NCBI RefSeq assembly: GCF_964275005.1
Contig: NC_092686.1
Coordinates: 14,108,431-14,172,430 of the forward strand
Length of the DNA: 64,000 nucleotides
Direction: 5' to 3'
DNA from: Diadema setosum
Taxonomy: Eukaryota > Echinodermata > Echinoidea > Diadematoida > Diadematidae
This document shows, piece by piece, positions 769 through 57,119 of this stretch (position 1 is the first letter of the stretch; every line of letters begins with the position of its first letter). The position numbers and the translations under genes were made by a program. Below the pieces are notes generated by a model, which was not told the DNA's origin, searched no databases, and saw nothing but the letters and a program-made list of their open reading frames with translations.

Positions 769-3700
769 ATGCACAAATTGGTGGCGATGGAGGTAAGTTA
801 GTGTTATCAATTTTCATAGTGCATCCTTTATACACAGCAACTTCACAAACTCACTATTTAAAGTTACCATCTGAGAAAGCTCAGTGACGGATCTAGAGCG
901 GATCACACCAGGCGTGCTCTTTTTTTTTTAAACAAAATAAATTTAAAAAATGGGGCGCGTGCACCCCTTTAATTTTGTAAAGGCGCCTCCCCTTTACGGA
1001 ATTCATGGATCAGCTTCTGAAGGTTGTTACTAAATGTTTTTTGCTGCGCACAAATTGAACCTTTACTTTAAAGGTCTTATTTTTCTTTTTTATTCAAATG
1101 GACTTCGACAATCTTCAAATTAGACACATACCAAGCGCAACGCGTCGGACAACATGCATGGAACTCGGACCATAGACTGTTTTCTTGTGGTTATTCTTAT
1201 GTGGACGAATGCTTATAAAATGGAGCACTTACTATTTATAAACGTATTGAACTTAAGGGCTCTTCATCCAAACACCAATGTAGGTCTATTTAATTGTGGG
1301 ATGCTGTCGCCGCTGTGGCAATACAGGTTGTACATTCTGTATAATACATTTGACAAAGTTCGATCTTACGGAGTCCATTTAAAGGCATAATTTACCATTT
1401 TCAGATGAAACAATTAGTCAGCTATAGTGTTTCAAAATAGTTCTAAAATATGAGCTCGGGATAAAGACAACCAATGTGACAAATTTGAATCAGTATAACT
1501 AAAGTGAAGTATTGTTATATATACAAAATATGAACATAATTATGAAAATAGTTCTGGACTGCCTAACTAAAGTTGTGATTTAGTAAGAAAATAATAATAT
1601 CACTTTTTTTTTTCATTTTTATAAATCACCGATTTCAATCTTAACAGGACCTAATTAAGAGTGCAAAAGTCCAGTTTGCTGTTTATTTATGTTTTCATAG
1701 TAAAGCATTCATATGATTTCCGGCATAATACGTACTTCAGTAAATTCATTGACCAGTTTCTTTCTCTTCCCTTCCTTTTGGTCAGCTTTCAATGATTGAC
1801 TCCATAAACTTGGTACTGTATAAGCGCATGCATTCTGTTGGAAAATTGTGCTGGGTAAGGGATTTAATGAAATTCGCTAGATCGTCCTGTAGGGTATTTA
1901 TGAAGACTGATGTTTGCTCTACTGATGCTTGTACAAATACTTCAACAAATGTTTGTATCAACTCGTTTTTTCCAGAAATCAGATATGAATTATCTTAATG
2001 GACTATAAGATATTACAATAGACTTTGAAGAACATATATATATATATATGTATATATATACATATATGAGACCGTGCACCACAAAACGAACAAAAAGTCG
2101 CACACACTGATTTTGCGTCAGGACTGAAAATAAGTGAAATGGGTCAACCTTGCTGATCTTGACTTTTTCATATTTTCTGGAAGAGCAAGTCTTCTTTTAC
2201 ATTATGCTAAAATGTGGGGTCATAAAACGGGCGGGAAAGTGTGTTTTTTAGCAGTTTATCTCGAACATTTTTGGTAGAATAGTGTGATTATGTGTGTCTT
2301 TAGGGTCCCTTTTTCATTTCTGAAAAACCTTGTACACACTCTCACTTTCAACTCTGATAACTTTTGAAAAGATGGAGCTACTGCATTGAAAGTTGGCATT
2401 GATTATGGACAGAATGTGTTAATGAGGCATACCTAATTTCAGTTTAATCTGATAATCCCTTCATTGTTGTTACTCGGGTGGTTTACTTCCTGTTTTTTTG
2501 TCCCATTCGTCGCACAGCCAGCACGGTTTGGTATAGATGAAGCGCTTGGATAGACACTGTACTTCAGAGCCTCTTTTCTCAGTTCAGACTTTTCCTGAGT
2601 TTGTGCTTTCTTTCCAATATTTAGATAGGTTAGGAGAGTCCATTTGATTTGAGTTATACATCATTTTAAAGCTTAAAGTCTGTTCTTTCAGAATATGGTC
2701 TTAACTGAAAATTCATGTCTGGCGACTTTTTGTTTGTTTTGTGGTGCAGGGTCACATATATATAATATATATATATATATATATGAAGGGTTTGTTTGCA
2801 AAAACCGATAAGTCCATTTTTGAAGATTTTGAAGTACGATCTCTATCATAAAGTACAAAATAATACCTTTTAAATGATATATTGGTCACTACATATAAAG
2901 GTATACTTTTGAAGTTATGGTCAAAAGAAGCAAACATTTTCTTATTATTTTCTTTATTTTTCTTGACCTTTAATCGCAAATATCTCCATTTGGCAAATAT
3001 GGACTTATCGGTTTTTGCAAACAAACTCTTCATATATATATATATAAACGTAAACGTATTTTGTACGTTTGCTTCAGAAACGGATTTAATTTTACATCTT
3101 TTTCGCACCCTGGCCGCTGACGAAGAGTGCGACTACCTGCTTGTACAATTATGACTTGCGAGCTCCTCCGGCAGGAAGGAGTTTCCTGAATTTGCCGTTT
3201 TGGTTTTTCATATATATCATTTTCTGTTCGATGGATCAGTGACCACCAAGAAAGTTTGGTTGACGACCAGGAAAAGACTGATTGACAGCGGGAAAGACCG
3301 CTGACAACCGGGAAAGACCGGTATTATTTCGATGGACAAGCAATCTCAAGAAGATGTCATACTGGCTGGGACGTCGCCCAGGATAAAAAGGTCCCCGGAT
3401 TCTTATGTTGATGACCTGGAAGCGAACGATGACGACGATTTAAGCCTGCTGGTTTCATCGACAGAAATGATCATATGTGATAGATGTGAACGCCAGTTTA
3501 AAGGAGTGAGAGGTCTGAAAATACACAGGAGCAAGACACAGTGCGGTAAGTCTCAAGACCGTTTATTGCCTGTCAATAGTAATTCGGAGCTAGTTGATAG
3601 TTTGGATCAACCCCACAATACTCATCAAAAGCTGTTTGAGATTAAGGATCGAAAGGTCTTGCAGAGTCTGGAACGTCGCTCTAACATAAATTGGCCGAAG

Positions 3701-6700: not shown

Positions 6701-8719
6701 CCTATATGACGTCATAATACCTACTCAGAGACAATGACCATGGTGCCCAACAACGCGAGTACAACTGTGGCAACGCGCGTACAACTCTTGCAACGCGCGC
6801 GCATGGTTTCATCACCTACTCAGATCATTTGAAATGCAGGTTAGTTGAAAAATCCGTTCGGCCAGGAGCAAACGTATTTTGTACGTTTGCTTCAGAAACG
6901 GATTTGATTTTACATCTTTTTCGCACCCTGGCCGCTGACGAAGAGTGCGACTACCTGCTTGTACAATTATGACTTGCGAGCTCCTCCGGCAGGAAGGAGT
7001 TTCCTGAATTTGCCGTTTTGGTTTTTCATATATATTGTCTTTAGGTTGTGCATGGAGAGAAAATAATCGAGTTTCATTCACTACTTCAATTGGCTTGTCA
7101 AAAAGTATCCAATGATGAGTTTACATCACAATTATCTTAAACGGAAGACCGAACAGTTCGTGTATGTGAGTTTTTAGTAAATAGGTCTTTGCGAACGACA
7201 CTATTCTTATAATATGAGGTGACTTTATTCAGTGCCATGAAATAGTTAATATCATTTTCATTAATTAATTCTCTGCTCTAGGTGGACATCATGGAGGTAT
7301 TCAACGGCAGTGGGACATTCCTGGTATTATTGTTATTATAATCATTCAATTTATCTGTACATAAGTGTGTTGGCAGGTTGTTATACATTTTCTACTCGGG
7401 AGCGGATCCACGAATTCCGTAAAGGAAAGGCGCCTTTACAAAATCAAAGGGGGCGCACGCCCCCCCCCCCTTCTAGATCCGCCACTGCTACTTGTCAATT
7501 TCCTATTGGAAGAACTTAAACATGATTTTCATTAATGGGGGGCCGTTTCCCCTATAGTCTATCCACATTCTTGGGAGTTTCATTATTGCGATATCAAATG
7601 TTAACCCGTTAAAGGTATTAGTCCCGAATATACTCGGGCAAGTAGGAAACGCGTGTTGTAGGAAAATCAGCCCGTCTTTAGTGGGTTTAAGAAATATGCT
7701 CTTCATACATCAATCAGAAAATCAGAGTATATGGAATTTTATGTATAACATCCCGCCACCGCCGTCATGATTTGTCACCTACTAGTCAACTATTGCAATG
7801 ACTAAAGAGCATGTTATTATTACCATTACAGTGATAGTAATTAAACACTACAGCTGGAGATGACAAATAGTCCTGCATAACTTTACTTTCAAAAACGGTG
7901 GCAGATTCATCGCTATAAAAGAGAGGAAGGAAATAAATTGTATATTAGGTTGTATAATGTAATTAACAGCTATGTGCTGCACAATTTTAGGTAGTGTTTT
8001 GCTGCATTTGTATACGTCCACCATGCTACTCTTACTTTTGATGATTTCATTAATCAAATTTCACCCATTTTCTTATCTAGGTGCTCCCCGGGGTATTCTA
8101 CGGCAGTTGGAATCTTATGGTAGGTGATAATTATCATTTCATGTTCCTATAAATGAACACATGTTGACAGGGGCTTTAAAACTTGACTGGTGACCAACAT
8201 TGTTATTTGAAGTACTTTTCCACAATTTCGAGATATTGTAAGCGCCCACAATATCTCTATTCAGTCTGTTCGGATTTTTGCATTTGAAGCTTTTCAGATT
8301 AGTTACATCAATCAGAAAATCTGCTACTAAGTTTCTAAAATACCGATATTTGTTCCACCTATTCAACGCTTATCGCACGTGAATTTGGCCTACATCGCGC
8401 GACTTCTGTAGAATTTGTTTTGTCCCATGTTACACTTAACACACTTTCACGGTTTGTACACATCGACATATCGTTCTGTATATCAATGACGCTATATCTC
8501 TCATGACTCCACGACGACTTTCAGTGAAAAAAAAAAACACAAACAAACAAACAAAGAGAGTCTGGTAACATTCCGGATTCTGTCTTGTTCTTCTTCTTAA
8601 CTCTTGTAGTACGAATGCAAAGCATCATGAAACGTGAAGTGAGGGATGCTCCTGAGTTGTCGAAGATGGAGAATGCTGATCTCACCAAACGTGACGTCAG
8701 TGATGTGGTCAATGACTGA
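769..8719 (+). CDS. Peptide precursor gene A (5' end outside window)
   Basis: Four exons are visible: 769-792, 7282-7323, 8081-8119 and 8610-8719 (stop TGA 8717-8719). All have AG/GT borders and phase-1 junctions, and together they encode the last 71 residues. The signal-peptide exon must lie upstream of base 1. The first visible exon encodes DAQIGGDG; the two middle exons encode GGHHGGIQRQWDIP and GAPRGILRQLESY, which share a GI-x-R core. The last exon carries MKR followed by an acidic tail ending in DLTKRDVSDVVND, so there are two Lys-Arg sites where a proprotein convertase could cut. The closest paralog is B. The intron 793-7281 is swollen by a retrotransposon and several MITEs. I do not recognise the family; secretion is inferred from the paralogs. 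Splicing is predicted by comparison among the copies, not proven. Confidence 0.72.
882..1015. mobile_element. Short hAT-like MITE
   Basis: It starts with CAGTGACGGATCTAG and ends near a matching GATCCATGAATTC-type end on the other strand. It shares its interior (GTAAAGGCGCC, GGGGCGCGTGCACCCC) with the inverted copy at 7395-7487. The homologous place in gene B (about 11490) is uninterrupted. The CAGTGGCGGATCTAGA-type terminus is typical of hAT superfamily elements. Confidence 0.6.
1378..1570. repeat. Dispersed repeat, copy 1
   Basis: It begins TTTAAAGGCATAATTTACC and matches 53371-53570 at many positions, including GATGAAACAA and the A-rich middle. The two copies are diverged. No coding potential or clear ends are visible, so the class is unknown. 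Confidence 0.5.
2070..2753. mobile_element. Non-autonomous DNA transposon, family 1, copy 1
   Basis: The terminal inverted repeats are about 32 bases: GACCGTGCACCACAAAACGA at the left, and at the right the complement of GACCCTGCACCACAAAACAA. The body matches 56045-56742 throughout (for example CAGCCAGCACGGTTTGG in both). It is flanked on both sides by TA microsatellites (about 2034-2066 and 2755-2783). No transposase is encoded. Confidence 0.75.
2784..3032. mobile_element. 249-bp inverted-repeat MITE between TA runs
   Basis: The left end TGAAGGGTTTGTTTGCAAAA continues into ACCGATAAGTCCATTTTT. The right end is its reverse complement with about two changes. Both ends abut TATATA runs, which suggests insertion into or at TA dinucleotides. 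The reading frames inside it are by-products of the symmetry. Confidence 0.7.
3052..3217 (+). repeat. Left 166-bp direct repeat of the retrotransposon
   Basis: It runs from AAACGTATTTTGTACG to TTTTTCATATATAT. The right copy is the same except A/G in GGATTTRATTTTACATC. Non-LTR elements normally lack long terminal repeats. This copy may be the 3' end of an earlier, 5'-truncated insertion at the same site. It contains a small hairpin (CTCCT...AGGAG near 3162-3182). Confidence 0.85.
3332..6717 (+). pseudogene. Retrotransposon polyprotein (zinc finger-RT-endonuclease), one frameshift
   Basis: The first frame (3332-5254, 640 codons) has a CX2C-X12-H-X5-C finger at residues 49-71. It is followed by a very basic linker (about 180-250) and a reverse transcriptase with FRPISLLNVEAK, the catalytic Asp464 in WLDLANAYGSVPH, and YMDD at residues 566-569. 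The reading frame then shifts near 5249-5251, right after the VKFLGR motif. The sequence continues as IDGRLDDK in the next frame to 6717. That second part has a CX2C-X7-H-X4-C knuckle and an RPD...IELTVP endonuclease signature, followed by KRDKY. This is what R2-group enzymes use to nick target DNA and prime reverse transcription. One missing base is enough to explain the break, so insertion was recent. The element cannot make a full protein unless it recodes. Confidence 0.85.
6870..7035 (+). repeat. Right 166-bp direct repeat (element 3' UTR)
   Basis: This is the right-hand partner of 3052-3217, located about 150 bases after the stop codon of the endonuclease part. The sequence right after it (from 7036) resumes ordinary gene A intron. 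Confidence 0.85.
7395..7487. mobile_element. Short hAT-like MITE, inverted copy
   Basis: On the minus strand it reads CAGTGGCGGATCTAGAAGG and carries the same interior as 882-1015. The homologous intron of gene B (about 15680-15705) reads straight through CTACTTGTCAATTT. In gene A, CTACT lies on the left and CTACTTGT on the right, so a target duplication of 5-8 bases is likely. Confidence 0.65.
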
Positions 8720-8952
8720 GGAGACGTCTCCGGTGCAGATGAAGTTTGAACCGTATTTGGGGGTTTGGAACCGCCAGAACCGTCATGCTTTGTCTCTTAC
8801 TGGCCAACTGGGGCCGTTATACTTACAGCATGAATTATTGTGGAAATTACAGTGATACTCATTAAATACTATAGCCAAACGGTACTGAACATAAGAAGTA
8901 GGGCCTACATAACGTTTTTAATGAATTATTTCATGTTTTTGTCACTTATATG

Positions 8953-8958: not shown

Positions 8959-8959
8959 T

Positions 8960-10798: not shown

Positions 10799-13700
10799 AT
10801 GAAGAACTTTTTGATTGCGTGCCTAGTCCTTCTGGTTGCAGGATCTCTGTTCGTGAAGGAAAGCGGTAGGTAGAATAGATTTATTTCATTCTAATGAATT
10901 TCACAGATTGTTTTATGTAGTAACAATACCTTCAATGTAGTCAGTTTAAAGTCTCAAATATGAGTATCAATGCAATCTTACGACACATACATTTTAGTCT
11001 CCACCAACCGTAAATAGAAACACACACACACACTCACACACACACACACACACACACTCACACACTTTTGAGGTGAATTGTTTCATTGCATTATTTCATG
11101 ACGTTGTATAAATAATTTTTAGGCGCGGTGTACGTACTTAAAGATGAAAAAGGCACTGATTTCATTTGTTGCTCCATTATTGTAGATTCATAAAACCTAT
11201 TTTCGTGTCATCTTTTGAAGATTGTAAAGTATTTCTGTGATAAATGGGTTGTTACGTGGAGACTTTCCCTTTCTAAACCCTTTCTAAGATTCACCACTCC
11301 TCTATTTTAACTCAAGGAAACACGACTATGGAGAATTCTGTAAAATGTCCATAACATTCACTCCTGTTTTGATATTCTTGTTCTCCTCCTCATTCAACAG
11401 ATGCACAACAAGGTAAGTTAGTGTTATTAACTTTCATAGTGTATTAGTTTTTCACAGCAACTTCACAAAACTCATTATTTCAACGTTACCCTCTAATGTT
11501 ACTTAATGTTTTTGTTGCTCGCAAATTCCTTTACTTATAAAGTCTTAATATTCTTATTTGATAGTCTAATGGATTTTCGACAATCTTCAAGTCAGACACA
11601 TACGAAACGTAACGTGCAGGACAACGAAAACATGCATGGAACTCTGACCATAGACTATTTTCTTGTGGTAATTCTCTTGTGGATCCATAAAAGCTTAGAA
11701 CAAAATGTAAAACAGAGACCATACTATCAACTTACTGAACTGAGGGGCTGTTCATCTAAGCACCAATGTGGGTAAAATCAATGACTATTTCCTTTCTCTT
11801 TGTTTCCCTTTGGTCAGCTTTCAATGACTGACTCAATGAACATGGCACCGTATAAACGCATGTATTCTGTGGGAAGATTGGATTTGGGTAAATGATTGAA
11901 TGAAATTCGTTGAATCGTCTTGTAGCCTACAAGTTTTGGGTTATTTATGAGGACTGATGTTAGCACTACTGATGTTCGTACTTCATCATATATTTGTATC
12001 AACTCGTTTTTCCGGAACTTAAGTATAGATTATCATTATTGACGAAAATATTACGATAGTTATTGAGAAACATTCATTCTTTAGGGTGAATACATGCCTT
12101 TGAGTGACAAATTGCCCTTCGACGTAAATAAGCACTGAATTGATCAGTGTTTTAACAGTGGCCGTTATAAAAGAAATCATGGGCGTACATACTCGAGCAG
12201 GATTCGAACCTGGAACCTCCTGATCCTGATCATGCTTATTTACGTCGATATAGGGCAATTTGTCAATCAGTTGCTCAAGTCGTGTGTGGCCACATCGTTT
12301 CTTAATGGCATACAGTACTCACAGCCTTTTCTTCTTTCTTGGGCAATAAATGTTATTTGTCACTAAAATATTGATGGAAATTTCCATAAGTGATAAGAGA
12401 GTACACAGTAGTTAGAATATGGTAGTATAAGACTATTATAAAAGCAAGGTATGTAGAATAAAGTATGGGTGCTATGAAAAACAATGATATTCAAAGATAT
12501 AATTTTACAACAGTCAGTCGCATGATATTCTCTGGCAATAAGGGTTTTACCAGGGAGGTGAGAGGATTTTGTCTCACCTCCCTGGTTTTACCAATCACAT
12601 AGATACCAAGAAGTGTAGTTAACTAACAGAGTTTCTAATGAATTGTTAAAGATCATGAAGATAGTATTTTGCGGATTGAGACATAATTTGCTGGCTCGTA
12701 TCCACTGAGTGACATCTTGTAACTTGTTATTGATAACGTGAAGAGGAATTTAGGGGTCTCTATGAGAATAGAAAGGCAAGAGTCATGGCAAATAAAGGGA
12801 GAGAGAGATTTTAACACAACATCTATGAAAATTGTTGATGTAAATAACATGTAAATGTTGGAATAACACCAAAACCATTGTCATTCATCGTGGATGCGTA
12901 TTGTCATTAGATACAAAATATTGTCTGCTTGTTAGGTAATTCCTGGACCACTCCAAACCCATTCCAACGAGGCCGTAATGCTGTGACTTTTTTTAGCAAG
13001 ATCTCATGGTTGATTATATCAACGGCTGTGGAAAAGTCCAGGGATATACAAATCGAACGTGAAAATTTGCTTTAGGAAGTGGTCACCTTTTCAATAGAAG
13101 TAAGACATGAGTGGTATTGAAAGTCAGATTGAAAATAGATTAAAAAACACGACTTAAGAACCTATGTTACTCTTTAAAAAATTTTTCAAGTTTAAATTGA
13201 AATTGGGTTATATACAATTACATAAGCATTTTCTTTGTATTAGAATAACTTTCGCAATATTTGTGACAGAGGGCACCACGTCAGACATGTACTCTATGAA
13301 AAATACGTTAAACTTTGCATGTTAAAAGGTCGGATCTATGAAAGTGCAAGTTGCACTTTCAAGGATGTTCACATTGTGACACTGGTCTTACATGTAAAGG
13401 TGCAAAGTAGCACCTGGGTGTGACATTGGAAAAGGTACAAAGTTGAACCAATTTTTCTTACATTGTAAGTGACAGACTATCTATTAGTTTATGCACAAAA
13501 GGGTTCATAATACAATCAATTATAAGTCTCACTAAAATGATTTCCACTACGATCATAATCCATGCTCTTTTTATCTGTTAATTTTGAAACAATATCTATA
13601 ATCAAACAATATTCATTCTATAATATTGAAAAATATAGAGTTCGGGCTTGGTATTCGCAAAATATTAAAGGGATTTCTAATTTACATGCTTATTTTCTTT

Positions 13701-16700
13701 ATTTATAACTCTCTAGGTGGTGGAGGTGGTCATGGAATTCAACGGCTGTTAGGAACACCGAAAGGCGGTAGGTCATATTATCCTTTAATTTTTCTAATCA
13801 TGCGTGCTGGCAGGATTTCATACCTTGTCTACATAAAACATGCGAAAATTGCCGTTTGAAGTACTTTTTTCCAGAATTCCCAGATATTGTAAGCGTTCAC
13901 CATATTTTTACACAGTCTATCGGGAGTTGTGTTTCTTCCATTCTAAATCTACAAATGGACAAGTTTAGATCAATCAGAAACTCTATTATATACCAATTGA
14001 ATTGTACTGACTGTATAACAAAACAAGAACCAACTCTTGTTTCATACAATGTAATCAAGTTGGTTCATAGTGTATTAGTTATTGAGAAACAATTATTCTT
14101 TAAAGTAAATACTTACTTTTGAGTAACGTAAAATACTTTTTTTTTGGCATTAAATGCATTTTGTAACTCAAATATCAATGGGTGTTTCCCCAAACATGTA
14201 CAACTTGATCCCATGATAATTCCATGAACTTTACTGTTTACATGAACTACACCGAATTTAGTAAATGACAGCATTTTAATCGGAGTGTCATCAAGTACAA
14301 CATTACCTGACCGTACTTTCAATTAGATTGTTAAAAAGCATAAATGTAGTACTTTGTACACCAAGAGATAGCTTCCTAGCTCACATCCACAAGTAGCTTT
14401 ATTGTAACATGAAATTTAAGAATGGAAAAATTTGGGGGTCTTCATGAGACCTAAAAATAGAGGTATTGGCAAATACAAGGAGAGAGAGCTTAACAGTAGA
14501 TACATGGATATCGTTGACCTGAATTACAGAGAGTGTAGAATGTAGCATGATAGGCTATATTAGGGTACACTTCAAACAGTTGTCACGCATAACACTTGCA
14601 TAATGAATGCGTTTGATGATAGTATAACGAGTTTTAGATCTACGACGCTAATTAGGAATATTTTATTGCTTCTGCGCACGAAATGTTAACGGCGTCCAAC
14701 CCTGACTATTTTCCGCAGAAACAAATTGTTTTTTATAGATGAAGTAATTCTTCTGAACAATTCCAGAACCTTTCCCCCTCAATCAGCAATGCTGTGACTT
14801 TTGATATTGAGCAGTATGTCATAGTTGATTTGGTCAAAGGCCTTGGAGAATTGAGGAAATACATTAATTTAGTTAAGTGGTTATGATTATCTGTGTAAGT
14901 ATTCTCTAAAGAATGGTCATTTCGATATATAGGCTGAAGATCGAGCTTCGGAGATTTATATTAGCCTTTTTAAAACTTAAAAAAAAATAGAATGGATGAC
15001 CTACAATTACATATACATCTCATAAATATTTCATACCCGCATATTGAGATAAAAAAAAAAATAATATCCAAAGTAAAAAAAGAAAGTTGCTCACATGTGC
15101 TCATAGTGTGCCATTGGAAAATGGGCAAAGCTGAATAAATTTTCTTCAGAGTTTATTACAGTGATTGATTGAGTATAAGCTTTTATACAGGGTGATCTTT
15201 ACGAATGACACTTTTCTCATAATAATACTATAACGTGCCATAAATATAAGTATAATGTAATATTCGACTGTACATAGATATGAAAGTATCATGCCAGATT
15301 CGGAAAGAGAAAAAGATTGCTGAAAAATATATTCTCGATAAGGGTGGCAGGTTGGTCACTTTAATACACCGGGAAATAATGAAGAAAACGAACTGTACAA
15401 TTGATGGTGTTATAATAATGTCACCTATGAAATGCGTGTGGCACGTTATGGGAGCCGGGAGAGTGTTTTGCTGTGTTATGAATACATCGTCCTTGCTGCC
15501 TTTTCTTCGGATTGTTAATAAAAGTTTTATTCATCAATTCTCTGCTCTAGGTGGACATCGTGGAGGTATTCAACGGCTGTGGGGCATTCCTGGTACAATT
15601 ATTATTATTATTATTATGATTATTATTATTATTATTATTATAATCATATAATTCATCTATACATACGTGCTGGCAGGTTTTCGTGCATTGTCTACTTGTC
15701 AATTTCTGGTTTGGAATATTTTTACAAAATTTCCAGGGTTGTTGTTTTTTGTTGTTTTTTTGTAACCGTTCCCATTATCTTTACCCAGATTTTTGGAAGT
15801 TTTGTTATTGCAATATTAAATGTTAACCCCTTAAAGAATTTAGTCCCGAATACACTCGGGCAGGTGGGAAAAGCGTGTTGTAAGAAGATCAGCCCTTCCT
15901 CAATGGGTTTAAAAAATATGCTCTTAATACATCATTCACAAAATCTGCTGCTGCGAATAGGGCCTATACATGTATTACATCCCGTCACCGCTGTCATGAT
16001 TTGTCACCTACTGGTCAACTAGGGACTAAAGAGCATAAATTATTTAAATATGAAAATTACAGTGATGTTAATGAAACACTATAGACGGAGAAACAAAAAT
16101 CGAAAATGGTGACAGATTCATCACTACAAACACTAGGAAGGAAATGAATTGTATATTTGATGAATCTACAATGCAACCAATAGGTAGGTATTGCACCATT
16201 TTTGATAGTGTTTTGCTGTAATGTAAATGTATCCACTATCCTGTTCTTACTTTCGATGATTATCAATCACATTTCACCGATTCTCTTCTCTAACTGCTCC
16301 CCCAGGTATTCGACGGCAGTGGGAATCCTCTAAAGGCAGTAGGTGATATTATCATATCATTTTCCTATAATACATGTTGACTGGGGTTTTTTATCCTGAC
16401 TGTGGCCAAAATTTTTGTTTGAAGTACTTTTCCACTATTTACAGATATTGTAAGCACTCTCAATATTTCTACCCTTTGGAATTAACTCCCTCTTCTTATT
16501 CAGAATGCCTTATCTATTGAATAAAACTCATATAAATTATGTTTAATCAGTTGTATTTTTTTTCTGGAACCGCACACAGTTATTAATGATTGTAACACTG
16601 AATCACTGAATTTTGGTTTTGCATTGTCCTAATGTTGTTGTGTTTTCCTGTCTTTTTTGTATGAATAGCAAAAGTGCGCTTAGAAACACCGGTATAAAGC

Positions 16701-16839: not shown

Positions 16840-17332
16840 CATTGCTATTACCCAGTCTATTCGGAGTTGTGCATTTTCAGGTTTTCGTACTAGCTACATC
16901 AATCAGAAAATCTGGTACTGAGTTTCTAAAATGGCAAAAAGCAATATCAATTCCACGTTTATGGCACGGTAATTTGCCCTACGTCGAGCAACTGATATAT
17001 TAGAAATTATTTTGTCACGTGTTAATTTACACTTACAGACTTAACGCACACAAGCACTCTCACTCACTTTGACAACTCGTACACATCTACATATGGTGCT
17101 ACATATCAATGACGATACATGTATATCTCTCATGACACCAACAACGGTTTTCAAAGAAAAAGCAAAATAGAGTGTGATAACATTTCGGATCTGTCTTGTT
17201 GCTCTTCTTGTCTCTTGTATCGTGCGAATGCAAGACATCATGAAACGAGAAGTGCATGATGCTCCGGAGGTGTCGAAAGTGAAGAATGCCGACCTCTCCA
17301 AACGTGACGTCAGTGATGTGGGCAATGACTGA
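10799..17332 (+). CDS. Secreted peptide precursor gene B (6 exons, 100 aa)
   Basis: Exons: 10799-10865, 11401-11412, 13717-13767, 15551-15592, 16306-16338 and 17235-17332. The total is 303 bases with all junctions in phase 1. The signal peptide starts MKNFLIACLVLLVAGSLF. A 12-base exon encodes DAQQ. Three repeat-like exons follow: GGGGGHGIQRLLGTPKG, GGHRGGIQRLWGIP and GIRRQWESSKG, all with a GI-x-R core. The tail has MKREVHDAPEV and a second LSKRDVSDVGND site. It is the longest member of the array, through extra middle exons. The last two exons use acceptor AGs downstream of the positions used in gene A, because the old AGs are mutated (CTAG to CTAA; TGTAG to TGTAT); both shifts keep the frame. 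Secretion is inferred from the hydrophobic N-terminus. No known name. Confidence 0.75.
11020..11067. repeat. CA-rich microsatellite
   Basis: An ACACAC run with interspersed CTCACA units, in the first intron of gene B. Confidence 0.85.
12070..12300 (-). repeat. Putative tRNA-derived SINE with inverted ends
   Basis: On the minus strand GGTTCGAATCC (12200-12210) fits the internal B box of an RNA polymerase III promoter. The sequence TGACAAATTGCCCT..CGACGTAAATAAGCA occurs on both sides in inverted orientation (near 12100-12135 and 12235-12270). No clear A box or tail was located, so the SINE assignment is tentative. Confidence 0.45.
12549..12586. other. Perfect 15-bp stem hairpin
   Basis: ACCAGGGAGGTGAGA and its exact reverse complement are separated by eight bases, in the second intron of gene B. 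The function is unknown; it is too short for a typical pre-miRNA. Confidence 0.7.
13768..15550. other. Gene B intron 3, no other gene seen
   Basis: This is AT-rich intron sequence without supported coding regions. The final 350 bases align with the gene A intron before 7282 (CTTTACGAATGACAC and following), which confirms the paralogy of exons 7282-7323 and 15551-15592. Confidence 0.6.
15597..15650. repeat. ATT microsatellite
   Basis: A TTA/ATT trinucleotide run directly after the donor of gene B exon 4. Gene A has only a remnant at the same place (TATTATTGTTATTATAATC). Confidence 0.85.
16720..16850. repeat. ATT microsatellite in gene B intron 5
   Basis: An impure ATT/ATC trinucleotide run of about 130 bases. 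Isoleucine- and leucine-only reading frames on both strands come from it and are not genes. Confidence 0.85.
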
Positions 17333-19523: not shown

Positions 19524-22042
19524 ATGAAAAATTTCGAAAATGTATGTATAGTCCTTCTGGTCGTCGGTGCTCTGTTCGCGAAGGAAAGTGGTAGGTCAAA
19601 TGGATTTGTAGATTTTATCATCCCTTTCATTCCTATCTAATCAATTCAGTCTATTATTGTTTTTTTTTCATTTATTTATTCTTTTTTTTTTGGGGGGGGA
19701 ACACCTTCTGAAATATCGCCGTTGTGAAATTCCAAACAATTCATAGGCTTTTCAGTGCAATCTTTCTTTCTATTATTTTGTGCAGAGCAGCTTTGTGTGC
19801 GGTGTACTTATACACTAGAAAGGCAATACATGTATGGTAATAAGTAGATCCGCTATTGTCATTATTGTATATAGTGATAGGTCTATTTTAGACCTCTTTT
19901 TGATATCATCTTTGGAGAACTGAGTGTATATGTATGACCACAATGTACAGTACGTTCGTTCCTCTTCTAACAATTGTTATTTTCCTTTTACACCCTCCAT
20001 TTCAACAGATGCACACCAGGATGGTTTTGGAGGTAAGTTGTCAACTTTTACAGTGTATTTTTTTGTGTATAATGTATCTTTAATCTTTACAAACGCTCAT
20101 AAACCTCACTCACTCATGTTACATTCTTTTAATGTTCATGTTTCTCAACAAAGTCTTCGATTTAAAAAGTTTTGATTAACTACTTTTTCTCTAGAATTCG
20201 AGACACGTGAAATGAATCAGGATGCTTGAAACACGCACAAGCATCGAGTTTAATTTGAGTGGGTGCAAGACATTTTTTCTCGTGTAAGTTCTCGTAAAGT
20301 CAATGTAGCATGAAAAAACTTGAACTGGAGAACATACTAGATAAGCATAAACATGTAGGATATTTGGAGATGCCGTGTTGCCAATGTGGGTAATATCACA
20401 GTGGGCATGCTCAGCGTCTAATACATGACATTTTACGACTTGACAAACATTACACGTTACCCCCCTGGTAAAAAGAGTTAATTATACCTTTGACGAATAT
20501 GTGCGATACACTGATTACCAAGGACGGAAATTATCAAGCAGTCATGATATAAATGAGTTCATTGTCATTATAAGTCAAATGAAAATCCAAAATTCCCATT
20601 TCATAGCTTCCGGCATTCCCGTATTGTAATTCCGAGTTTGAATTCAGAATCTATCTTCACTTCGTTTTACGCGTTCAACATATTCTTTCTTAAATATTTG
20701 CTTTTCCAAAATCCAAAAACAAAAATAATAGTTGACTATAATAAACGTTTATTGTTAGGATTGTTCAAATGCATAATATGCACGTTTTTTGTTTTGTTTT
20801 GTTTTTTTTTTTTTTTTTTTGCTGATGCTGCTGTATGGTTGGTAGACGTTGCTGGGGACACGACGTTGCTCTGCATTTTCCTGAACTCTGTCATAATAAT
20901 GACTAACCTGTGCTGCGTTCTAGCCATACAGACAAGATATTACAATGTTCTCCGAAGATTACCTCGAGTTTTGTGGTCGGTTTCCTCATGTCTGTGAAGA
21001 CGCAATGTGCAATAACTGGTAGTGTCGCGTCCGAACGGACACGAGTTAACAAGGTTCTCCAGGCCTTATTCATGAAACTTTCAATAACAAGTCACCATGG
21101 TTGTTATGAGCTACTGAAATCCTTGCATCTGATTGGCTGAGAGCAAGTTTGTCATAGAAATTCGGCAGTAATTTATGTCTATTCAGTGGCTTCGAAATAT
21201 TTTTTTTTTCGGAGATGCAGACAGCTGTTTAACGCTCACTTGCTCTCTACTTAACAACCATGTTGTCCTTACGTCGAATTACTGACAAAATTTGTTTATC
21301 ATGACTGTTTTCATCGCTCCCTTCTTTAGGTGCGAGTATTCTCCGACCCCGATGTCCTCCAAATTGCGGTAGGTGATGGAATGTTATAATTTTATTGCCC
21401 TACATACGTTAAGCCAGGACTACCTGCTAAAATGGTCGTTCGAAAATTGTGTTTTAGATAATGTGTTTTTCCACACAGTTTAAATGTTCCCAATTTTAAC
21501 ATCAATCTCGTCGAACTTGAATATTTTCTCTCTGAAATAAAACAGTAGTTTATGTCATGTGGAAACCCCGCTAGAATACGAGGCGATTCCATGTACTACA
21601 GTAGCTATACGAAGCTAATCAAGACTTGTTGATGCAAACTGATATTAAATTTCCCTGCACGGCGAAAATGATGTAAAAAACAACAACAAAATGGTGCCAA
21701 AAGTGATATAGTACACTCTGGATGGGTGTAAAAAGAATTCTTTTCACAACCTGATAGAAGTGATGTAACAGAAACTTAACTTGGCCCCTACTTAAAACCT
21801 TTAAAACACGCATCCAGATATCAGCAGCATCTTTTTCTTTATGAGGCAATGTTTCTAAGCATGATGAAGCATTTCATTAAACAAGCGTTTCCTAAGTCCA
21901 CAACTTTGGTATGTCTTTGCATGCATCTTTAGAGCCTTTACGTGACGCTACAAAACGTGAAGTGAAGGAGGCCCTAGAGTTCCTTGGGATGGAGAATGCC
22001 CAACGCACCAACTATGACGCCGGTGGTATAAACGATGACTGA
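19524..22042 (+). CDS. Secreted peptide precursor gene C (4 exons, 79 aa)
   Basis: Exons: 19524-19590, 20009-20032, 21330-21368 and 21933-22042 (240 bases, all junctions phase 1). The signal peptide begins MKNFENVCIVLLVVGALF. The second exon encodes DAHQDGFG. The third encodes GASILRPRCPPNC, with a Cys-Pro-Pro-x-Cys pair that only gene D shares. The last exon encodes EPLRDATKREVKEALEF and an acidic tail ending GGINDD. A convertase-type KR site divides a basic middle from the tail. Two cysteines five residues apart could form a small disulfide loop or pair between chains; this is an inference. An in-phase alternative terminal exon lies at 20195-20229. No known name. Confidence 0.77.
20195..20229 (+). 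pseudogene. Candidate alternative terminal exon of gene C
   Basis: After a pyrimidine-rich tract and CTAG, the sequence reads in phase with exon 2 as EFETREMNQDA and then stop. It aligns with 29976 onward in gene E (GIFKRDVKDTA) and 34957 onward in F. It could terminate a short isoform or be a relic; only transcripts can tell. Confidence 0.45.
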
Positions 22043-46319: not shown

Positions 46320-46357
46320 AAAGAAAAAAAAAAAATATATATATATATATATATAAT

Positions 46358-46997: not shown

Positions 46998-49900
46998 ATG
47001 AAGAACTTGGGACTTGCGTTTTTAGTCCTTCTGGTTGTCGGAGTTTTGTTCGTGAAGGAAAGCGGTAGGTAGATTGGGTTTATCAAAATTATCCTCTTGA
47101 CTAATTTTGACTCGGCTTTTACTTTTGACTTTACTTATCTTGACTTATTTTGTTTAAATCAGTGCACATTTTAACTTATGTGAATTTTTATTAAAGGAGA
47201 ATATTACCCTAAATATTGCAGCTGTGAAATTTCAAACTGGGACAAGGATGTAATTTCATGCCACATACATCTCATTCTCTTCTATACCGTAATTGGGAAA
47301 AACACCTACTTTTGATGTGAAGATTTTTATGACATTGATTTGTAGCAGTGATATTTGTATAGTTCTAAGCGAGGTGCTGTTTACGGCATAAGCCACTGTA
47401 GTAATGACATGATTCATTGTTGGATATGCTCTAGACGAACTCCTGACGTCATCTTGGACTAAGCGTTTCTATATCCAACACATAGTGAATATAATTCGTC
47501 TGTTACGTGATGGTGAAGCAGCGGAGAGCGCTGCCCTGGCATAACCCAGCCCGCTCGTCACTATATGAGACCCATCGTATGAAACCTTCGTTTCCGATAA
47601 GGTATACTGTTACCTGGAGAATTATTTCAAATGTCAATCTCATTCATTCCTCTTTTCATTATTTTTGTACTGCTCCTCAACGGATGCACGAGGGAGTCGT
47701 GGTCAAGGTGGTGGAGGTACGATTGTAGGTTGTCAACTTTGATAATGCATTTGCATAATCTCTCTAATATTGTAACTTAAAACTCTTTAACGTTACTCTC
47801 TCATGCCACACGTTAGTTTCGATGTTGCTCAACAAATTCTTTCATCTAAAAAGTTATCATTTTCTATCGTTTTTTTTTTCCTATGTTGTCTCTTCCTCAT
47901 GTTACCTTTAATGCCATGTATGTGGTCTATAGTAGCAGAAAACAGAATGTGTAATGGCAAATACACCTGATATTCCCAATGTACTCTATCACCCAATTAC
48001 CAGTGAAGGCCTACTTTAACGCGAAAACTTATAGTTCTCAACATGACTTTAGAGCGGTGTCGACTTTGCTAAAATATGTACACATTTTTTTAAATCAGAA
48101 ATGTGTCAAACAACACCATGATCACAGCATTCTGTTGGGTGTAACGACAAAATTGCCAAATATTGACAAAAAGGTACGTTGGAAGTATCATAATTTGATC
48201 TTATGTGCTACGTATATATACATTGTATCTCGAATATTGATAATCTAACAATGGAGTATACCATTGGTGGTTCACACTAAAGGAAATTGCATGCAGCTTA
48301 ATGGGAAATTACTTGGGCAAGGTCAATCATCACGTTATGTTCCAACTTATTTGTTATGTCAATATACTAGGAAGGTTTGGGAAGGTACAGTAATTCCTTT
48401 GATCATGTTACTTGCAACAGTTGAGCTGGGAAGATATTCTTTTTGGTATTGATTTACAAGATAAAAGAAAAGCTCAATTAGTGAGTAATAACTTCTTCTT
48501 TTTTTGGTACGGAATTAATTTTTCTAGGGAAAAATATTACATCGCCAACTGAATATTTGATTAAAAGTTGTGTAGAATAAAATAACAAGAAAACCTTATA
48601 ATTATGCACAATTTGTTTCCCACAAATTTAGAAAAGTGGGAAACCTGGAAACGGTTATGGAGATGATACTGCTGTTTGGTTTGTAAAATAGTGTCAAACG
48701 TCCAACAGGAAAAATCTCATCTGAGTTATCTCTGAGATTTTTTTTCTAAGTTTGCACATGGAAAGGTAGGGAAGGTTGGATATAGGGGTAGGGGAAGTAA
48801 GGTGGGAATGGGAGACTGAATAAGCCAATTCGGAGTTAGTTCATGGGCATATTGGTCCGAATGACCATTTTTTTTCAGTCGGTTACGGGAACTTCACTCG
48901 TTTTTAAGCGACATATGCGTAAGCTTTACGTTAAAAAAAAATGGAATTCATTGAACCTGTCCAAACAAACAATGAACTTGCTTATTAGTCCATGGGCCAG
49001 GCCAGATTTTGGTACCGTCTGAGGTGGCAAAACCTTTTTGGTGTCATTTTGTTTGCCGGGCATAGATATGCTTATCAAGCTATGATAGCATTTCCAAATG
49101 AGTAGCTTAGTCCTAATAAATGAATTTTTAACCCGTTTGGTTTCGCTGTTATATCCCTTTACTTCTGAATCGAAACTAACCGCTATAGAAAGAAGAGCAC
49201 TGTCTTCTGTATGTCCACAGGTGTCCTGTTGTAAACGCGGTGCGCTTAGTCTTTATTCAAGGCAGCGAAGGGAATATCCAAGGGTTATGATGTCCACAGC
49301 GCTTAGTCTTTATTCAAGACGGCGAAGGGAATATCCAAAGCTAATGATACAGTGTATATCCCTTTATCTAAAAAGAAAAAAAAAAATCCTATTGGATTTT
49401 GCCGTATTTTTCAATTATTCATCATTTTCCGGTGAAAACGCTTCGGTGAAAATGCTAATGCCACGCCACTGTCGCTTTATTTCCATCCAACAATGAAAGA
49501 TAATGCAGAAACAATGTACCGGTACACTACAATGCATTATAATAAATAATATTGTACATGAGCAGAGTGATTTTTTTTTAAACTGATGTATTAAAGGGTA
49601 GTGTAAAAACAGTATAGATAATCCCTTTTATTAGGAACTTTAGATATGATAACATCCACGAGGAATTGCTTTTTTGTTTGTTTTTTAGATAAAGGGATAT
49701 ACACTGTATCATAGGCTTTGGATATTCCCTTCGCCGTCTTGAATAAAGACTAAACGCACCGCGTAAATATTCATAAATGAATGATACACGCCAAAAAAAT
49801 CAAAATAACAACAACAACAATAACAACAGCTCTGGACAGCATCACCCTTTGGATATTCCCTTCGCCGCCTTGAATAAATACTAAGCGCACCGCGTTTACA

Positions 49901-52900: not shown

Positions 52901-55273
52901 TCTTTCCATTCCCTTTCTCTACAGAAGGGCGTGGACCATCGGGTTCCCGAAGAGCCGGTAGGGTGTGAAATGCAATCATTTCCTTTTCCTATACACACGT
53001 TATGCCAGATTTCTGCAGTATACTTTGACTACATCACCTAATTAATGTTGGAATATGTACTTTGAAAATATTTCCACACAATCTAAGTGTCCCATCTTCA
53101 AACCCAGATGTGTATTTTCTCTGCGACATAAGACTAGTTTATATCAGATACTTTCCTTTATGAGGTGGCAAGAATCAAGACTTCTCAAACTGACGCCCAT
53201 TTTTCCTATGTCAGACTTGTATGTGGCGAAAACGTTATGTAATTGATATAATGTTAATACCAAAAGAGATCACCCTCTGGATGGATGCAAAATGAGTTTC
53301 ATTTACCCCTTCTGGGACTTTATTGGCTCAGAAAACATTTATATACACCAGCCCTAGACTTTGGAATTCTTTAAAGACATAATTTAACAGTTGCAGATGA
53401 AACAAAAACCCAGCATTATAGTGCTTTATAGGCTACCTCTGAAATGAGGGTTAGGGATAGAAACAACCACTGTTAACGTTTGAATCTGAATAATCCATGT
53501 TAAGTATTTTGAATGCACAGAATGTGAACAATAGTTATGATAAAATGTTTCCAGATTAAGCCGAATACAGTTATGGTTTATTGAGAAAAATACTGATATC
53601 TCCTTGTAATTTATGATTTATTGCGGAAATTTTATATGGTAGGATGTTTTGTGATACAACAGACCTACACATATACATCATAAGTTATACCTTGAACATA
53701 TTTCTAAATCGCTGCTCAAAAAGGTAAACATGACTTTTTTTCCAGCAGTGATAGAAAAAAAAAATTCCCTATGAAATTCTTTCTGTTAAATTCTCTCTGT
53801 GATGTTCATTATTCATTTAACTGGCTGATCTCAAAAACCTCAGGGTTCAAAAGCAATCATTGAATTCATCATTTCGTAATGTAATGCAACATTTTAATTC
53901 TATAATCCTTGCTCAGCTGAGTGCAGCCATCAGCTGTCCGAAGCACCTCAATTCTTTCTTCCGTTTCCAGAGTTCAGCGTGTAGGAATTCTTTTTTTTTT
54001 CTTTCCCGTCTTTTAATCATATTGTTGTACCTCATTCCTTTCAATGGCATAACCTTCTGTCAAATCATGTCCTGTTGCTGTGTTTCTCCTGTCTTGTTTC
54101 GTCCTATCTGAAATTATTCGTATGCAAAGTATTTGCAAACTAGTATTTTATTTTCATAAGAATTCTTTGAGTGGTTCACACTATACAAGCATGCTTTAGT
54201 GGACCTCTCAGTTCTTTTTATATTATATTGTATTTATCCTTTGCACAGTTGAATGTATGGTATGATATAATTCCTGACTTATTCTTTGTTAATTTTCTTT
54301 TAATGGAATGAAAATAAATGAATTGAATTGAAACGAAATGATAAAAATTAGCCCTCTTCCCTACCTGATGAGAGTGACGTCATATCTTCCTGCCATGGGA
54401 AGGGAAGTCGTACTACAATGGGAGTTATATGCAACTAAACTGTATTGCACCGTTAAGGACAGTACGTGTTTTCCTCTATTGTGCATTAATGCCTTGCCTT
54501 TTTTTTTTTTTTTTTTTGCCCCCAATCAATTTCTGTTTTTGGCAGTTGGTTTCTACGATTTTTGTCCTACAGCCTCCTTGTCATGTCCTTTCCTTGTCCA
54601 AGGTAATATTATGTATTTTAGGAAGTGACAGACATTGGGTCTGATGGCCCTTTTACAGTCCCATTCCCTCTCCATTTGCCCAACACAATGTTCTCAGTTT
54701 AGATTACTATCAAATGTACATCTGTTATTATATGTCTATGTATGTATTATATTATATTATATTATATTATATTATATTATATTATATTATATGATACTAT
54801 ATTATATTATATTATATTATATTATATTATATTATATTATATTATACTATACTATATTATATTATATTATATTATATTATATTATATGATACTATATTAT
54901 ATTATATTATATTATATTATATTATACTATATTATATTATATTATATTATATTATATTATATTATATTATATTATATTATATTATATTATATCATAATCA
55001 TATCATAATCATTCCCCCTTCTCTACAGGACGGCCGCGGCGTCCGGAGCCTTCCCGTAGTCCCGGTAGGTTATGAAATGCGATCATATATTCCGACATTC
55101 GTTCTGCCAGGTTTTTGTAGTATACTTTAGTTACTTGTCAGAAGCGATATTGGAATCCCACTTTCAAACAATTTCCACATAATCTGATTTTGTTTCTCGT
55201 TTTCAAACTAGTTTATTTGGAGATGCGTTTGGATTGTGGGGGGGTTCTCTCTCTGCAACATCCAAAAAAAAAA

Positions 55274-55325
<52 letters not shown>

Positions 55326-57119
55326 TTAAGACCAGGGGGGTGTTTCATAAAGCTGTTCGTAAAGTTACGAACGACTTACGAACAACTGGTGATCAGTTCT
55401 TGTGCTGCATTATGGAAATTTTGATAAGTATAGCACATCAGAACTGATCACCAGTCGCTCGTAAGTTGTTCGTAACTTTACGAACAGCTTTATGAAACTG
55501 GGCCCAGGTAGATACTGCACTTTACGAGGTGACAAGAATCAAGACTTTTTCAAAGTGATGCTCCTTTTCCCTACGTGGCGAAGACAATGTGCAATTGACA
55601 AAATGTTTCCAACAGAAATCACACTATGGATGGGTGCTTTTAAAGGGACATTCCAGACGATTTTCATAATTTCACATCATGTAGTACATAAATCGACAGG
55701 TCCATTTATTTATTGTGATCCTTGAGCAGAGTAAAAAATACACTGAAAAATCTTAAGAAATTACACTAAACAGTGTTGATGACATAGGCGCCTCACATAT
55801 TCGAAATGCAGCAGCGTAATTCTATTATAACACTGTTGCTTAACAGGTTCACCCGTGTAGATGCTATGCATGCCTTTTCTTCTTTTGTTCTGCATCCGTG
55901 AGTACCAATTCATGCATTCGTATGGTGAGGCTGCCATGTCATTATCCTTGTTCGTTGCAATTTGTTATAAATTTTGAAAACATTCTTATTCCTCATCCCA
56001 ATCACTATGAATTTTGAAACTCTGTACTTATTATTACTAATTGTGAACGTGCATCACAAAACCAACAAACCGTCGCACCCCTTGATTTTACGTGATGACT
56101 CCAAAAAGGTGAAATTGGTCAACCAAGTCAATCTTGAGTTTTTCATATTTTCTGAAAGAGCTATTTTTCTTCTACATTATTCTTACGTTTGGGGTCAAAG
56201 AATGAATAAGAAAGTGTATTTTCAGCAGTTTTTCTACAACCCTTTTTTTTTGTAGAGTACTGTGATCAGGTATAAGTCTTAGAGGTTCCTTTTTATTTCT
56301 TGAAAATGCTATGTACACCCTTCACTTTCAACTCTAATAACTTGAAAGGATAGTGCTATCACCTTGAAAGTTGGCATTAATCATTGACAGACTGTGTTAG
56401 TAGAACACGCTCAATTTCCGTTTAATGTAATAATCTCTTCATTGTTTTTGCTTCGGCGGATTACATCCTGTCTTTTGTCCCATTCATACCACAGCCAGCA
56501 CGGTTTGGGAAACAAAGATTAAGCGCTTGAATACACCGTGTACCTCACAGCCTCCTTTTTTTTCCAGTTCACACTTTTCGAGATTGTGTGCTTTCTTTGC
56601 AATATTTAGATTGGTTAGAAGAGTCCATTTGATTTGAGTTACGCATCATTTTAAAGGTTAGAGTCTGCTCTTTCGAAATGTACCCTTAACTGAAATAAAA
56701 TCCATGTCTGGGGACTTTTTGTTGGTGTTGTGATGCAGGGTCGCAATTTATAGTTGCTCAAATGTAAGAATCTGAAAATCATCCGGAGATCTCCTTTAAA
56801 TTAACCCGCTTCCGTATCTGTTGAGGGTGAATTAAAGTCAGAACGCACCTTCTCCATAAAAAGTAACCTCAAAACACGCACCTACAGTTCCACAAAATAA
56901 AACTTCTGCAACATTTCGAAACAACTTTTCGAAGAATATTAGTGTTAATTAACACAGCTTTTCCCTGAACCAATGCTATTAATCATAAATGTTAAATTCG
57001 CAACTTTGGCTTCTTTTAACATCCCTCTGGTAGAGCATCATCCAGACGACACTGCAAAACGTGACGTGAAGGAGGCTGCCAAGTTCTTTAAGATGGAGAA
57101 TGCCCAGCGCCAGCCATGA
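46998..57119 (+). CDS. Peptide precursor gene G (5 exons, damaged, 84 aa)
   Basis: Exons: 46998-47064, 47684-47716, 52925-52957, 55029-55064 and 57034-57119 (255 bases, phase 1). The signal peptide begins MKNLGLAFLVLLVVGVLF. The middle is the most Arg/Pro-rich of the array: DARGSRGQGGG, EGRGPSGSRRA and GRPRRPEPSRSP. The last exon encodes EHHPDDTAKRDVKEAAKFF but stops early at MENAQRQP. A small deletion shifts the frame there, and the usual TGA is also changed. The acceptor of exon 2 is CGG in place of CAG; an in-frame AG at 47691-47692 could replace it. The two middle exons sit in a duplicated intron-exon unit. Introns are filled with transposons. It may be a pseudogene or a truncated, still working copy. 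Confidence 0.65.
47732..48981. other. Gene G intron 2, first part
   Basis: 47945-48090 aligns with 30040-30160 of gene E, the part after its alternative exon. The KR-containing start of that exon is not recognisable in G. No other gene seen. Confidence 0.55.
48982..50177. mobile_element. Palindromic foldback element, copy 2
   Basis: It has the same ends (TAGTCCATGGGCCA and TGGCCCATGGACTA) and body as 40958-42116. Its arms run inward through CCTAATAAATGAATTTTTAA and GGGAATATCC units. It also carries part of the central CCGGTACA segment, but only on one side, so the loop was rearranged. Confidence 0.8.
50812..52240. mobile_element. Mutator-like foldback element, 1429 bp
   Basis: Both sides carry the 9-base direct repeat TCACTTATC (50803-50811 and 52241-52249). 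The ends GGCTTGTGCCGAAA and the inverted TTTCGGCACAAGCC extend into inverted arms of about 280 bases. These hold two copies of CCTTTCGGCAAAACCGGGG + CTTTGGACGAAGGGTG. Inside is a second hairpin built from TTGGTCTAAT / ATTAGACCAA words (51115-51380 and 51530-51850). A 9-bp duplication and long inverted ends fit the Mutator-like superfamily. No transposase is present. Confidence 0.85.
53295..54345. mobile_element. Retroelement-like insertion in gene G intron 3
   Basis: Paralog E lacks this segment between GGATGNAAAA and CCCTCTTCCCTAC. It includes dispersed repeat copy 2 (53371-53570) and ends AATAAATGAATTGAATTGAA, a short tandem tail as seen at the 3' end of many LINEs. The coding part is not recognisable. 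Confidence 0.5.
54751..54991. repeat. ATTAT pentanucleotide satellite
   Basis: About 240 bases of an ATTAT repeat with a few ACT/GAT changes, just upstream of gene G exon 4. Tyr/Ile/Leu-only frames across it are artefacts. Confidence 0.95.
55276..55322. repeat. TA microsatellite
   Basis: A TATATA run following a poly-A stretch, in gene G intron 4. Confidence 0.9.
55335..55505. mobile_element. Palindromic MITE, 171 bp
   Basis: The left arm GTTTCATAAAGCTGTTCGTA and AAGTTACGAAC is repeated inverted at the right (CTTTACGAACAGCTTTATGA). A second inverted pair ACTGGTGATCAGTTCT lies inside. Almost the whole element folds back on itself. Confidence 0.85.
55640..56799. mobile_element. TTAA-flanked MITE carrying a nested copy of family 1
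   Basis: The left end TTAAAGGGACATTCCAGACG and the inverted right end CCGGAGATCTCCTTTAA have TTAA at both borders. It is the inverse of the copy at 63499-63969, with which it shares GAAATGCAGCAGCGTAATTC-like and TGGTGAGGCTGCCATGTCAT-like stretches. The family 1 element at 56045-56742 interrupts it. Confidence 0.78.
56045..56742. mobile_element. Non-autonomous DNA transposon, family 1, copy 2
   Basis: It matches 2070-2753 along its length, with ends GTGCATCACAAAACCAAC and the inverted GTTGTGATGCAGGGTC. It is nested inside the element at 55640-56799. The interior TCTTCATTGTTTTTGCT and CAGCCAGCACGGTTTGG are shared with copy 1. Confidence 0.78.

Follow-up and report, generated by a model that had tools for sequence, protein, structure and literature searches.

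A 64,000-nt window of the genome of the sea urchin Diadema setosum (C2:14108431-14172430 of a 912.7-Mb assembly) contains seven paralogous genes, termed g0 to g6, that are predicted to encode small secreted peptide precursors. All lie on the plus strand, and each consists of a signal exon, one to four phase-1 microexons of 12-51 nt, and a terminal exon whose core encodes Lys-Arg (KR). The homologous blocks (signal exons, small internal exons and terminal exons with the KR core) were recognised by self-comparison of the window and by alignments. A first-pass annotation made from the letters alone had described this same-strand set, and its coordinates match ours, with the signal exon of g0 lying outside the window. 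Coordinates below are counted from the start of the window unless C2 is named, and negative values precede the window. The signal exons that begin in the window all end in phase 1 (Table 1).

In an extended stretch comprising the window and 100 kb on each side (264 kb), a DNA profile of the signal exon gives 20 matches at E <1e-8, two of which are the halves of one split exon, leaving 19 signal exons. We label the genes outside the window u1 to u7 and d1 to d5. The same stretch holds 24 terminal exons with E <1e-5. Strong matches to both profiles are all on the plus strand, and weaker ones are present on both strands. Genome-wide, the signal exon of g4 is found in at least 21 places, all within C2 13,903,625-14,225,707, 20 in plus and one in minus orientation. 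Sixteen of the 19 signal exons in the 264-kb stretch are among these 21 (those of u3, u7 and d1 are not), and the profile and genome searches together bring the number of signal exons to 24, including the split one. The tail peptide has at least 19 genome-wide matches (E<=0.1), every one of them in plus orientation on C2 between 13.936 and 14.222 Mb; both genome-wide counts are lower bounds. Five signal loci lie outside the 264 kb. On the plus strand, four of these translate into the same signal peptide; the fifth is the minus-strand copy, which matches the profile more weakly. The last terminal exon in the 264-kb stretch ends at 14,255,117.

The array forms a single locus that spans about 350 kb or more (at least 13.904-14.255 Mb), with ends beyond the searched stretch. 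The seven-gene array of the first-pass annotation is present in the window, but it is part of a much larger one, and some copies (g6 and g1) are not intact.

At C2:13902125-13905205, two A-like exons (see below) accompany an inverted signal exon: one follows it on the minus strand, and the other lies on the plus strand. The low end of the array may carry genes on both strands.

Exon phase and reading frame

The six models whose start lies in the window (g1 to g6) have coding lengths of 303, 240, 228, 237, 231 and 222 nt and contain 4, 2, 1, 2, 2 and 2 microexons, respectively. These re-derived lengths bear out the earlier claim that each gene adds up to an exact multiple of three with a single terminal stop; because model exons were picked partly for keeping the frame, frame closure alone is no independent proof. 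Eighteen models from the 264 kb (u1, u2, u4-u7, g0-g6 and d1-d5) are in frame with one terminal stop, and the splice check printed no non-canonical site. Left out of this set are the split gene u3, the terminal exons at -36523, -3588, 69458, 93133 and 146575, and the B-type exons at -4154, 68619 and 145495.

The models have three to six coding exons per gene, none longer than 122 nt, and all internal exons are phase 1-1. Their 37 microexons (12-51 nt) make up 29.5% of 4356 coding nt, and 15 of the 18 models hold only one or two. Two kinds recur: A (DAQ...), which follows the signal exon, and B/C (..G[IL].R...), which lies ahead of the tail. Given phase 1-1 throughout, a microexon could be duplicated or lost, or recombine through introns, and the tail would stay in frame; the first-pass annotation had made the same point for gain, loss and skipping.

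Two analyses that do not start from the models bear on whether this anatomy exceeds chance. One is a blind scan for stop-free phase-1 exons of 9-75 nt, which used generic donor and acceptor matrices taken from general knowledge and untrained on this locus. In the window, the plus strand has nine matches and the minus strand has none. Eight are family microexons, and the ninth (10842-10865) sits inside the signal exon of g1. Across the 264 kb, the counts are 32 plus and 1 minus. The 32 comprise 25 distinct family microexons, two second versions (83468/83474 and 112856/112862, each pair pertaining to a single microexon), one signal-exon match and four unplaced matches. Splice pairs with a length not divisible by three, taken with no stop filter, number 11 on the plus strand of the 264 kb.

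In the other analysis, the best-scoring splice pair was taken at each A- or B-profile DNA match with frame ignored. At 40 of 44 places this pair is open and a multiple of three in length; a 45th place yielded no pair. Fourteen of the places are the profiles' own seed sequences, and homologous places are non-independent, so that the printed p-values of this test are too small. The four failures are the B exon of u1 (44 nt, frameshifted), the B exons of u2 and g1, and the A exon of g6 (acceptor lost). The 33-nt B exons of u2 and g1 fail through an equally good donor 4 nt further on; in g1, this alternative scores about as well as the modelled donor and would break the frame. Six of the 40 best pairs are shorter, in-frame versions of the modelled exon (u2 C, g0 C, g1 C, g4 B, d1 B and d2 B). 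The symmetric phase-1 exons noted earlier are upheld by both analyses.

Duplication, mosaicism and selection

B-profile exons are repeated within genes, with three in u2 and g1 and two in g0, g6, d4 and d5. At a larger scale, the four-gene block u1-u4 is duplicated as g0-g3, with aligned pieces >250 bp on the main diagonal that are 78-95% identical. Length differences between paired exons (48/51, 42/39, 27/21, 33/42, 104/110, 110/122 and 67/64) are all multiples of three, which partly reflects the in-frame requirement placed on the models. In g1, the last microexon and the terminal exon both rely on non-homologous acceptors.

Trees of the signal and terminal regions conflict for two genes. The signal exon of d3 is sister to that of g5 (0.82), and its tail groups with the u/g0/g1 class (0.90); the signal exon of d4 groups with those of d1 and d5 (0.99), and its tail again falls in the u/g0/g1 class (0.80). 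This conflict between two small trees suggests that d3 and d4 are mosaics formed by recombination in introns.

Three subfamilies were defined from the likeness of signals and tails, with the mosaic genes d3 and d4 placed by signal. Ratios of nonsynonymous to synonymous substitution (dN/dS) between them, averaged over non-independent pairs, are 0.36, 0.43 and 0.31 in the signal; a 16-codon core of the tail gives 0.47, 0.75 and 0.41. Coding constraint acts between subfamilies. Among eight recent gene pairs, the pooled ratio (omega) is 0.76 for the signal, 0.87 for A, 0.52 for B and 0.72 for the tail. No exon class exceeds 1, which lends no support to positive selection, and the counts suggest purifying rather than positive selection. 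The synonymous divergence (dS) of B exons is 0.34, versus 0.14 for the signal; thus, part of the apparent hypervariability may be alignment error or gene conversion. The family had been called rapidly diversifying, a description that holds for gene content (block and exon duplication, mosaics and broken copies) but not for positive selection.

Common strand, anatomy, frame, conservation of KR, clustering at one locus, and exon and block duplication are established for this family.

Candidate precursors and their possible function

The predicted products have the plan of a secreted, processed precursor, as the first-pass annotation had proposed: a signal-like N terminus (called by eye), phase-1 exons and a dibasic KR, which is kept in 24 of 24 terminal exons. 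Compared with stop-free reads of the array introns, microexon residues are rich in Gly (24% versus 3%), Arg (15% versus 6%) and Pro (11% versus 4%), in a count that sets the first base of each microexon's first codon to G and so slightly favours Gly, Asp, Ala, Val and Glu. Cys is depleted (1.4% versus 3.6%), and His makes up 3.7% of microexon residues. All 18 models are positively charged between the signal exon and KR when KR is counted in, and in 16 of the 18 the tail beyond KR is negative. B-profile exons share recurring motifs, GGxxGGIQRL among them, and the mature stretch has no strongly conserved core. The B exons of g2, g3 (Table 1), u4 (-38739 to -38698) and u3 (-42388 to -42350) carry a CPPxC motif, in the forms CPPNC, CPPLC and CPPFC; other models differ.

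We consider that the locus may encode an orphan, single-locus, tandem family of prepropeptides, from which a linear, Gly/Arg/Pro-rich and mostly cationic host-defence peptide would be released (probability about 0.5). Our confidence in the secreted-precursor part alone is higher. Each gene would contribute a signal exon, at least one symmetric phase-1 microexon rich in Gly, Arg and Pro, and a terminal exon with the invariant KR and a usually acidic tail. The signal would be removed upon secretion, and a convertase of the furin/PC type presumably cleaves at KR. The acidic tail may shield the cationic part until that cleavage, and the product would be a linear, mostly cationic effector of antimicrobial type, roughly 15-55 residues long. 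We infer the defence role from the charge partition, the composition and a charge plan like that of myticalins, and in this way the alternative of defence or signalling left by the first-pass annotation is narrowed to a defence-like function.

No named relative was found, as before. One precursor searched against 5.8 billion proteins gave one candidate and none at E<=10, and a 15-sequence profile gave 3249 candidates and none at E<=1; the collection may hold few spliced echinoderm proteins, and this absence is therefore weak evidence. Fifteen precursors matched only two unrelated Pfam families, one member each (best E 0.16), and four chains among the PDB sequences at E<=10 (best 0.56) were judged unrelated. 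Rfam and tRNA scans gave no match in the window. The peptide family was not recognised in a literature search of titles and the starts of abstracts, a coverage that excludes most subscription papers and all of bioRxiv, and the query "EchAMP" with sea urchin had no match there.

The closest parallels are therefore of design. The myticalins and modiocalins, linear cationic antimicrobial peptides of mussels, have a conserved signal, a hypervariable cationic mature region, Lys-Arg and an acidic C-terminal extension, as well as a phase-1 intron, clustered genes and pseudogenes (PMC5577615, PMC12294457). The order of elements is the same in most models here, a likeness of architecture alone. In myticalins, however, a 5' UTR (untranslated region) exon comes first and the signal, entire mature peptide and KR share the next exon, and the family is described as restricted to Mytiloida (PMC5577615). 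In the urchin genes, the mature part is spread over one to four microexons, and KR lies in the last exon, apart from the signal.

In schistosome micro-exon genes (MEGs), as described, symmetric exons of 6-36 bp account for about 80% of the coding sequence and the products are secreted, with alternative splicing proposed as a source of variation (PMC5825161). Another description gives a range of 3-81 bp, which would cover the sizes here (PMC10526429). The urchin genes likewise place short symmetric microexons in predicted secreted-protein genes. They differ in phylum, in microexons of 12-51 nt that fall short of the 80% share, and in their KR precursor plan, which does not appear in the consulted passages of PMC5825161. 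Thus, the architecture appears myticalin-like and the gene design MEG-like, with the mature part divided among duplicable, swappable microexons. The suggestion that the design may be undescribed holds for this combination, which was not found in the literature search, but not for its two components.

Two echinoid families were compared and set aside. The He185/333 genes have two exons, the second of 749-905 bp, and encode Gly-rich and His-rich regions (PMC4204807). The 185/333 (Transformer) family of immune genes resembles the present one as an echinoid, Gly-rich multigene family that has a leader exon first and a mosaic of elements; its identity with these genes is excluded by their three to six short coding exons and by their His content. 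Centrocins and strongylocins are also echinoid, are antimicrobial peptides and comprise a signal peptide, a pro-region and a cationic mature peptide, but the main prosequence precedes the mature peptide, and EeCentrocins have an extra 24-residue interchain piece and a C-terminal dipeptide (PMC4805251). Their plan is rejected here because the acidic part is C-terminal, after KR.

The peptides freed at KR could instead be signals (neuropeptides, pheromones or gamete-related factors), with the array supplying species- or individual-specific ligands. The signal-like N terminus and invariant KR suit any secretory prepropeptide, and g2, g3 and u4 have the short CPPxC loop in common. Precursors of amidated neuropeptides carry Gly before the dibasic site, whereas the residue ahead of KR is Gly in none of the 24 terminal exons, which speaks against that precursor type. 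At least 21 diverse, clustered copies with broken members and no strongly conserved mature core are also unlike a receptor-matched hormone, and we regard a signalling role as doubtful.

Another reading emphasises splicing: as proposed for MEGs, each gene might produce many variants by skipping or choosing symmetric microexons. Exon anatomy allows alternative splicing, since all internal exons are phase 1-1 and up to four with related motifs occur in one gene (g1, u2). Skipping the frameshifted B exon of u1 would even leave the frame intact and the tail open. However, with one or two microexons in most models and a microexon share of 29.5% rather than about 80%, combinatorial genes of this kind seem unlikely.

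The Gly-rich, low-complexity composition and orphan status would also suit secreted structural, mucus or gland peptides (for example, of epithelia or pedicellarial glands) that are not mainly antimicrobial. Because the charge split between mature part and tail resembles that of antimicrobial myticalin precursors, we judge this improbable. That the array is mostly dead, a set of decaying pseudogenes carried by local duplication, would fit its several broken copies and the weak constraint in recent pairs but is very improbable given the conserved KR, dN/dS of 0.31-0.47 in five of six between-subfamily comparisons (0.75 in the sixth), the 40 of 44 in-frame splice pairs and the many complete models.

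Several observations weigh against a family of working cationic defence peptides. Lys is depleted in microexons (2.3% versus 5.6% in stop-free intron reads). If KR is not counted, the segment ahead of the tail keeps a positive charge in just 15 of the 18 models (two are at -1 and one at 0), and the tails of g6 and d1 have a charge of +1. Four of the 32 plus-strand matches of the blind scan (-93554, -17286, 124590 and 135317) fall in no assigned gene. Constraint in recent pairs is weak, with only B (p 0.01) significantly below 1. Furthermore, copies are damaged: the B exon of u1 is frameshifted, although its tail stays open; u2 has a stop inside its tail; the signal exon of u3 is broken apart by about 2 kb; and in g6 the acceptor ahead of the first microexon is dead and a frameshift cuts the tail short.

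A wider proposal, which we hold tentatively and at well below even odds, is that the region is a germline locus for peptide diversity. Its at least 21 signal exons over about 350 kb would combine a signal, one or more interchangeable phase-1 cassettes and a KR tail, diversified by exon duplication, intronic recombination among the subfamilies and alternative splicing, and each animal would possess a large, partly private set of cationic effectors.

If expressed, the genes would constitute an orphan sea-urchin family that varies a secreted cationic peptide by exon modularity, and not just by changes inside a single exon, while signal and processing tail stay fixed, and would unite two designs known separately, MEG-like symmetric microexons and myticalin-like prepropeptides. 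The exact exons given here allow one to ask whether symmetric microexons serve splicing diversity or recombination only. Gene finders may overlook genes whose coding exons are all this short.

Exon coordinates and neighbouring sequence

Table 1. Exons of g0 to g6 in window coordinates; terminal exons end at the stop.
Gene	Exon	Position	Strand	Length and peptide	Remarks
g0	signal	-1373, outside window	+		profile match; gene begins 1.4 kb before window
g0	microexon A	769..792	+	24 nt, DAQIGGDG	blind scan, profile and model
g0	microexon C	7282..7323	+	42 nt, GGHHGGIQRQWDIP	weak donor; profile match and model; best pair with frame ignored is shorter (15 nt)
g0	microexon B	8081..8119	+	39 nt, GAPRGILRQLESY	alignment and frame-blind pair
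g0	terminal	8610..8719	+	ends MKREVRDAPELSKMENADLTKRDVSDVVND, then stop	KR
g1	signal	10799..10865	+	MKNFLIACLVLLVAGSLFVKES	phase-1 end
g1	microexon A	11401..11412	+	12 nt, DAQQ	blind scan and frame-blind pair
g1	microexon	13717..13767	+	51 nt, GGGGGHGIQRLLGTPKG	profile match and frame-blind pair
g1	microexon C	15551..15592	+	42 nt, GGHRGGIQRLWGIP	weak donor; best pair with frame ignored is shorter (15 nt)
g1	microexon B	16306..16338	+	33 nt, GIRRQWESSKG	internal AG used, homologous acceptor lost
g1	terminal	17235..17332	+		non-homologous AG; homologous acceptor lost
g2	signal	19524..19590	+	MKNFENVCIVLLVVGALFAKES	
g2	microexon A	20009..20032	+	24 nt, DAHQDGFG	blind scan and frame-blind pair
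g2	microexon B	21330..21368	+	39 nt, GASILRPRCPPNC	blind scan and frame-blind pair
g2	terminal	21933..22042	+		KR present
g3	signal	24929..24995	+		
g3	microexon B	25420..25458	+	39 nt, GASSRRRQCPPLC	blind scan and frame-blind pair
g3	terminal	26003..26124	+		KR present
g4	signal	28926..28992	+	MKNFGLAFLVLLVVGALFVKES	genome-wide query
g4	microexon A	29774..29800	+	27 nt, DAQGPKRPP	blind scan
g4	microexon B	31040..31072	+	33 nt, GRSGILRHPPK	weak donor GTAGTA; best pair with frame ignored is shorter (9 nt)
g4	terminal	31614..31723	+		KR present
g5	signal	34111..34174	+	64 nt	
g5	microexon A	34774..34794	+	21 nt, DAQDGRP	frame-blind pair
g5	microexon B	36136..36177	+	42 nt, GHFGILQRRFPSKN	frame-blind pair
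g5	terminal	37763..37866	+		KR present
g6	signal	46998..47064	+		
g6	microexon A relic	47684..47716	+		acceptor AG reads GG; probably unused
g6	microexon B	52925..52957	+	33 nt, EGRGPSGSRRA	blind scan and frame-blind pair
g6	microexon B, copy 2	55029..55064	+	36 nt, GRPRRPEPSRSP	blind scan, profile and frame-blind pair
g6	terminal	57034..57119	+		shortened through frame change after KMENA

The long intron of g0 contains a reverse-transcriptase element (3305-6714), with RVT_1 at E 1.7e-20 in its first open reading frame (ORF) and a sub-threshold zf-RVT in the second; these two were the ORFs covered by the Pfam scan, among 122 long ORFs in the 264 kb. Upstream of g3, 183-bp inverted copies (23726-23908 and 24362-24544) are 98.9% identical, a recent fold-back duplication. 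The region that precedes the signal exon has further copies at 38789-39608 and 42180-42593, with 80-86% identity between the two or to the g6 counterpart. No signal exon was found after either copy, and both appear to be orphan, promoter-like sequences. The second B exon of g6 is closely preceded by a 252-bp TATTA array (54745-54996), and a tandem array of 4.6 copies of a 214-bp unit occupies 61572-62543.

Elsewhere in the genome, a bindin profile matches C20 at 193 bits; none of 14 control genomes match. The translation contains VLGATKIDLPVDINDPYDLGLLLRHLRHHSNLLANIGDP, which we take to be the conserved echinoid bindin core. In this gene (C20:18934875-18936105), the core is followed by a tandem repeat of roughly 80 residues. 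Published bindins are much shorter than its open frame, which spans 1183 amino acids with one internal TAA.

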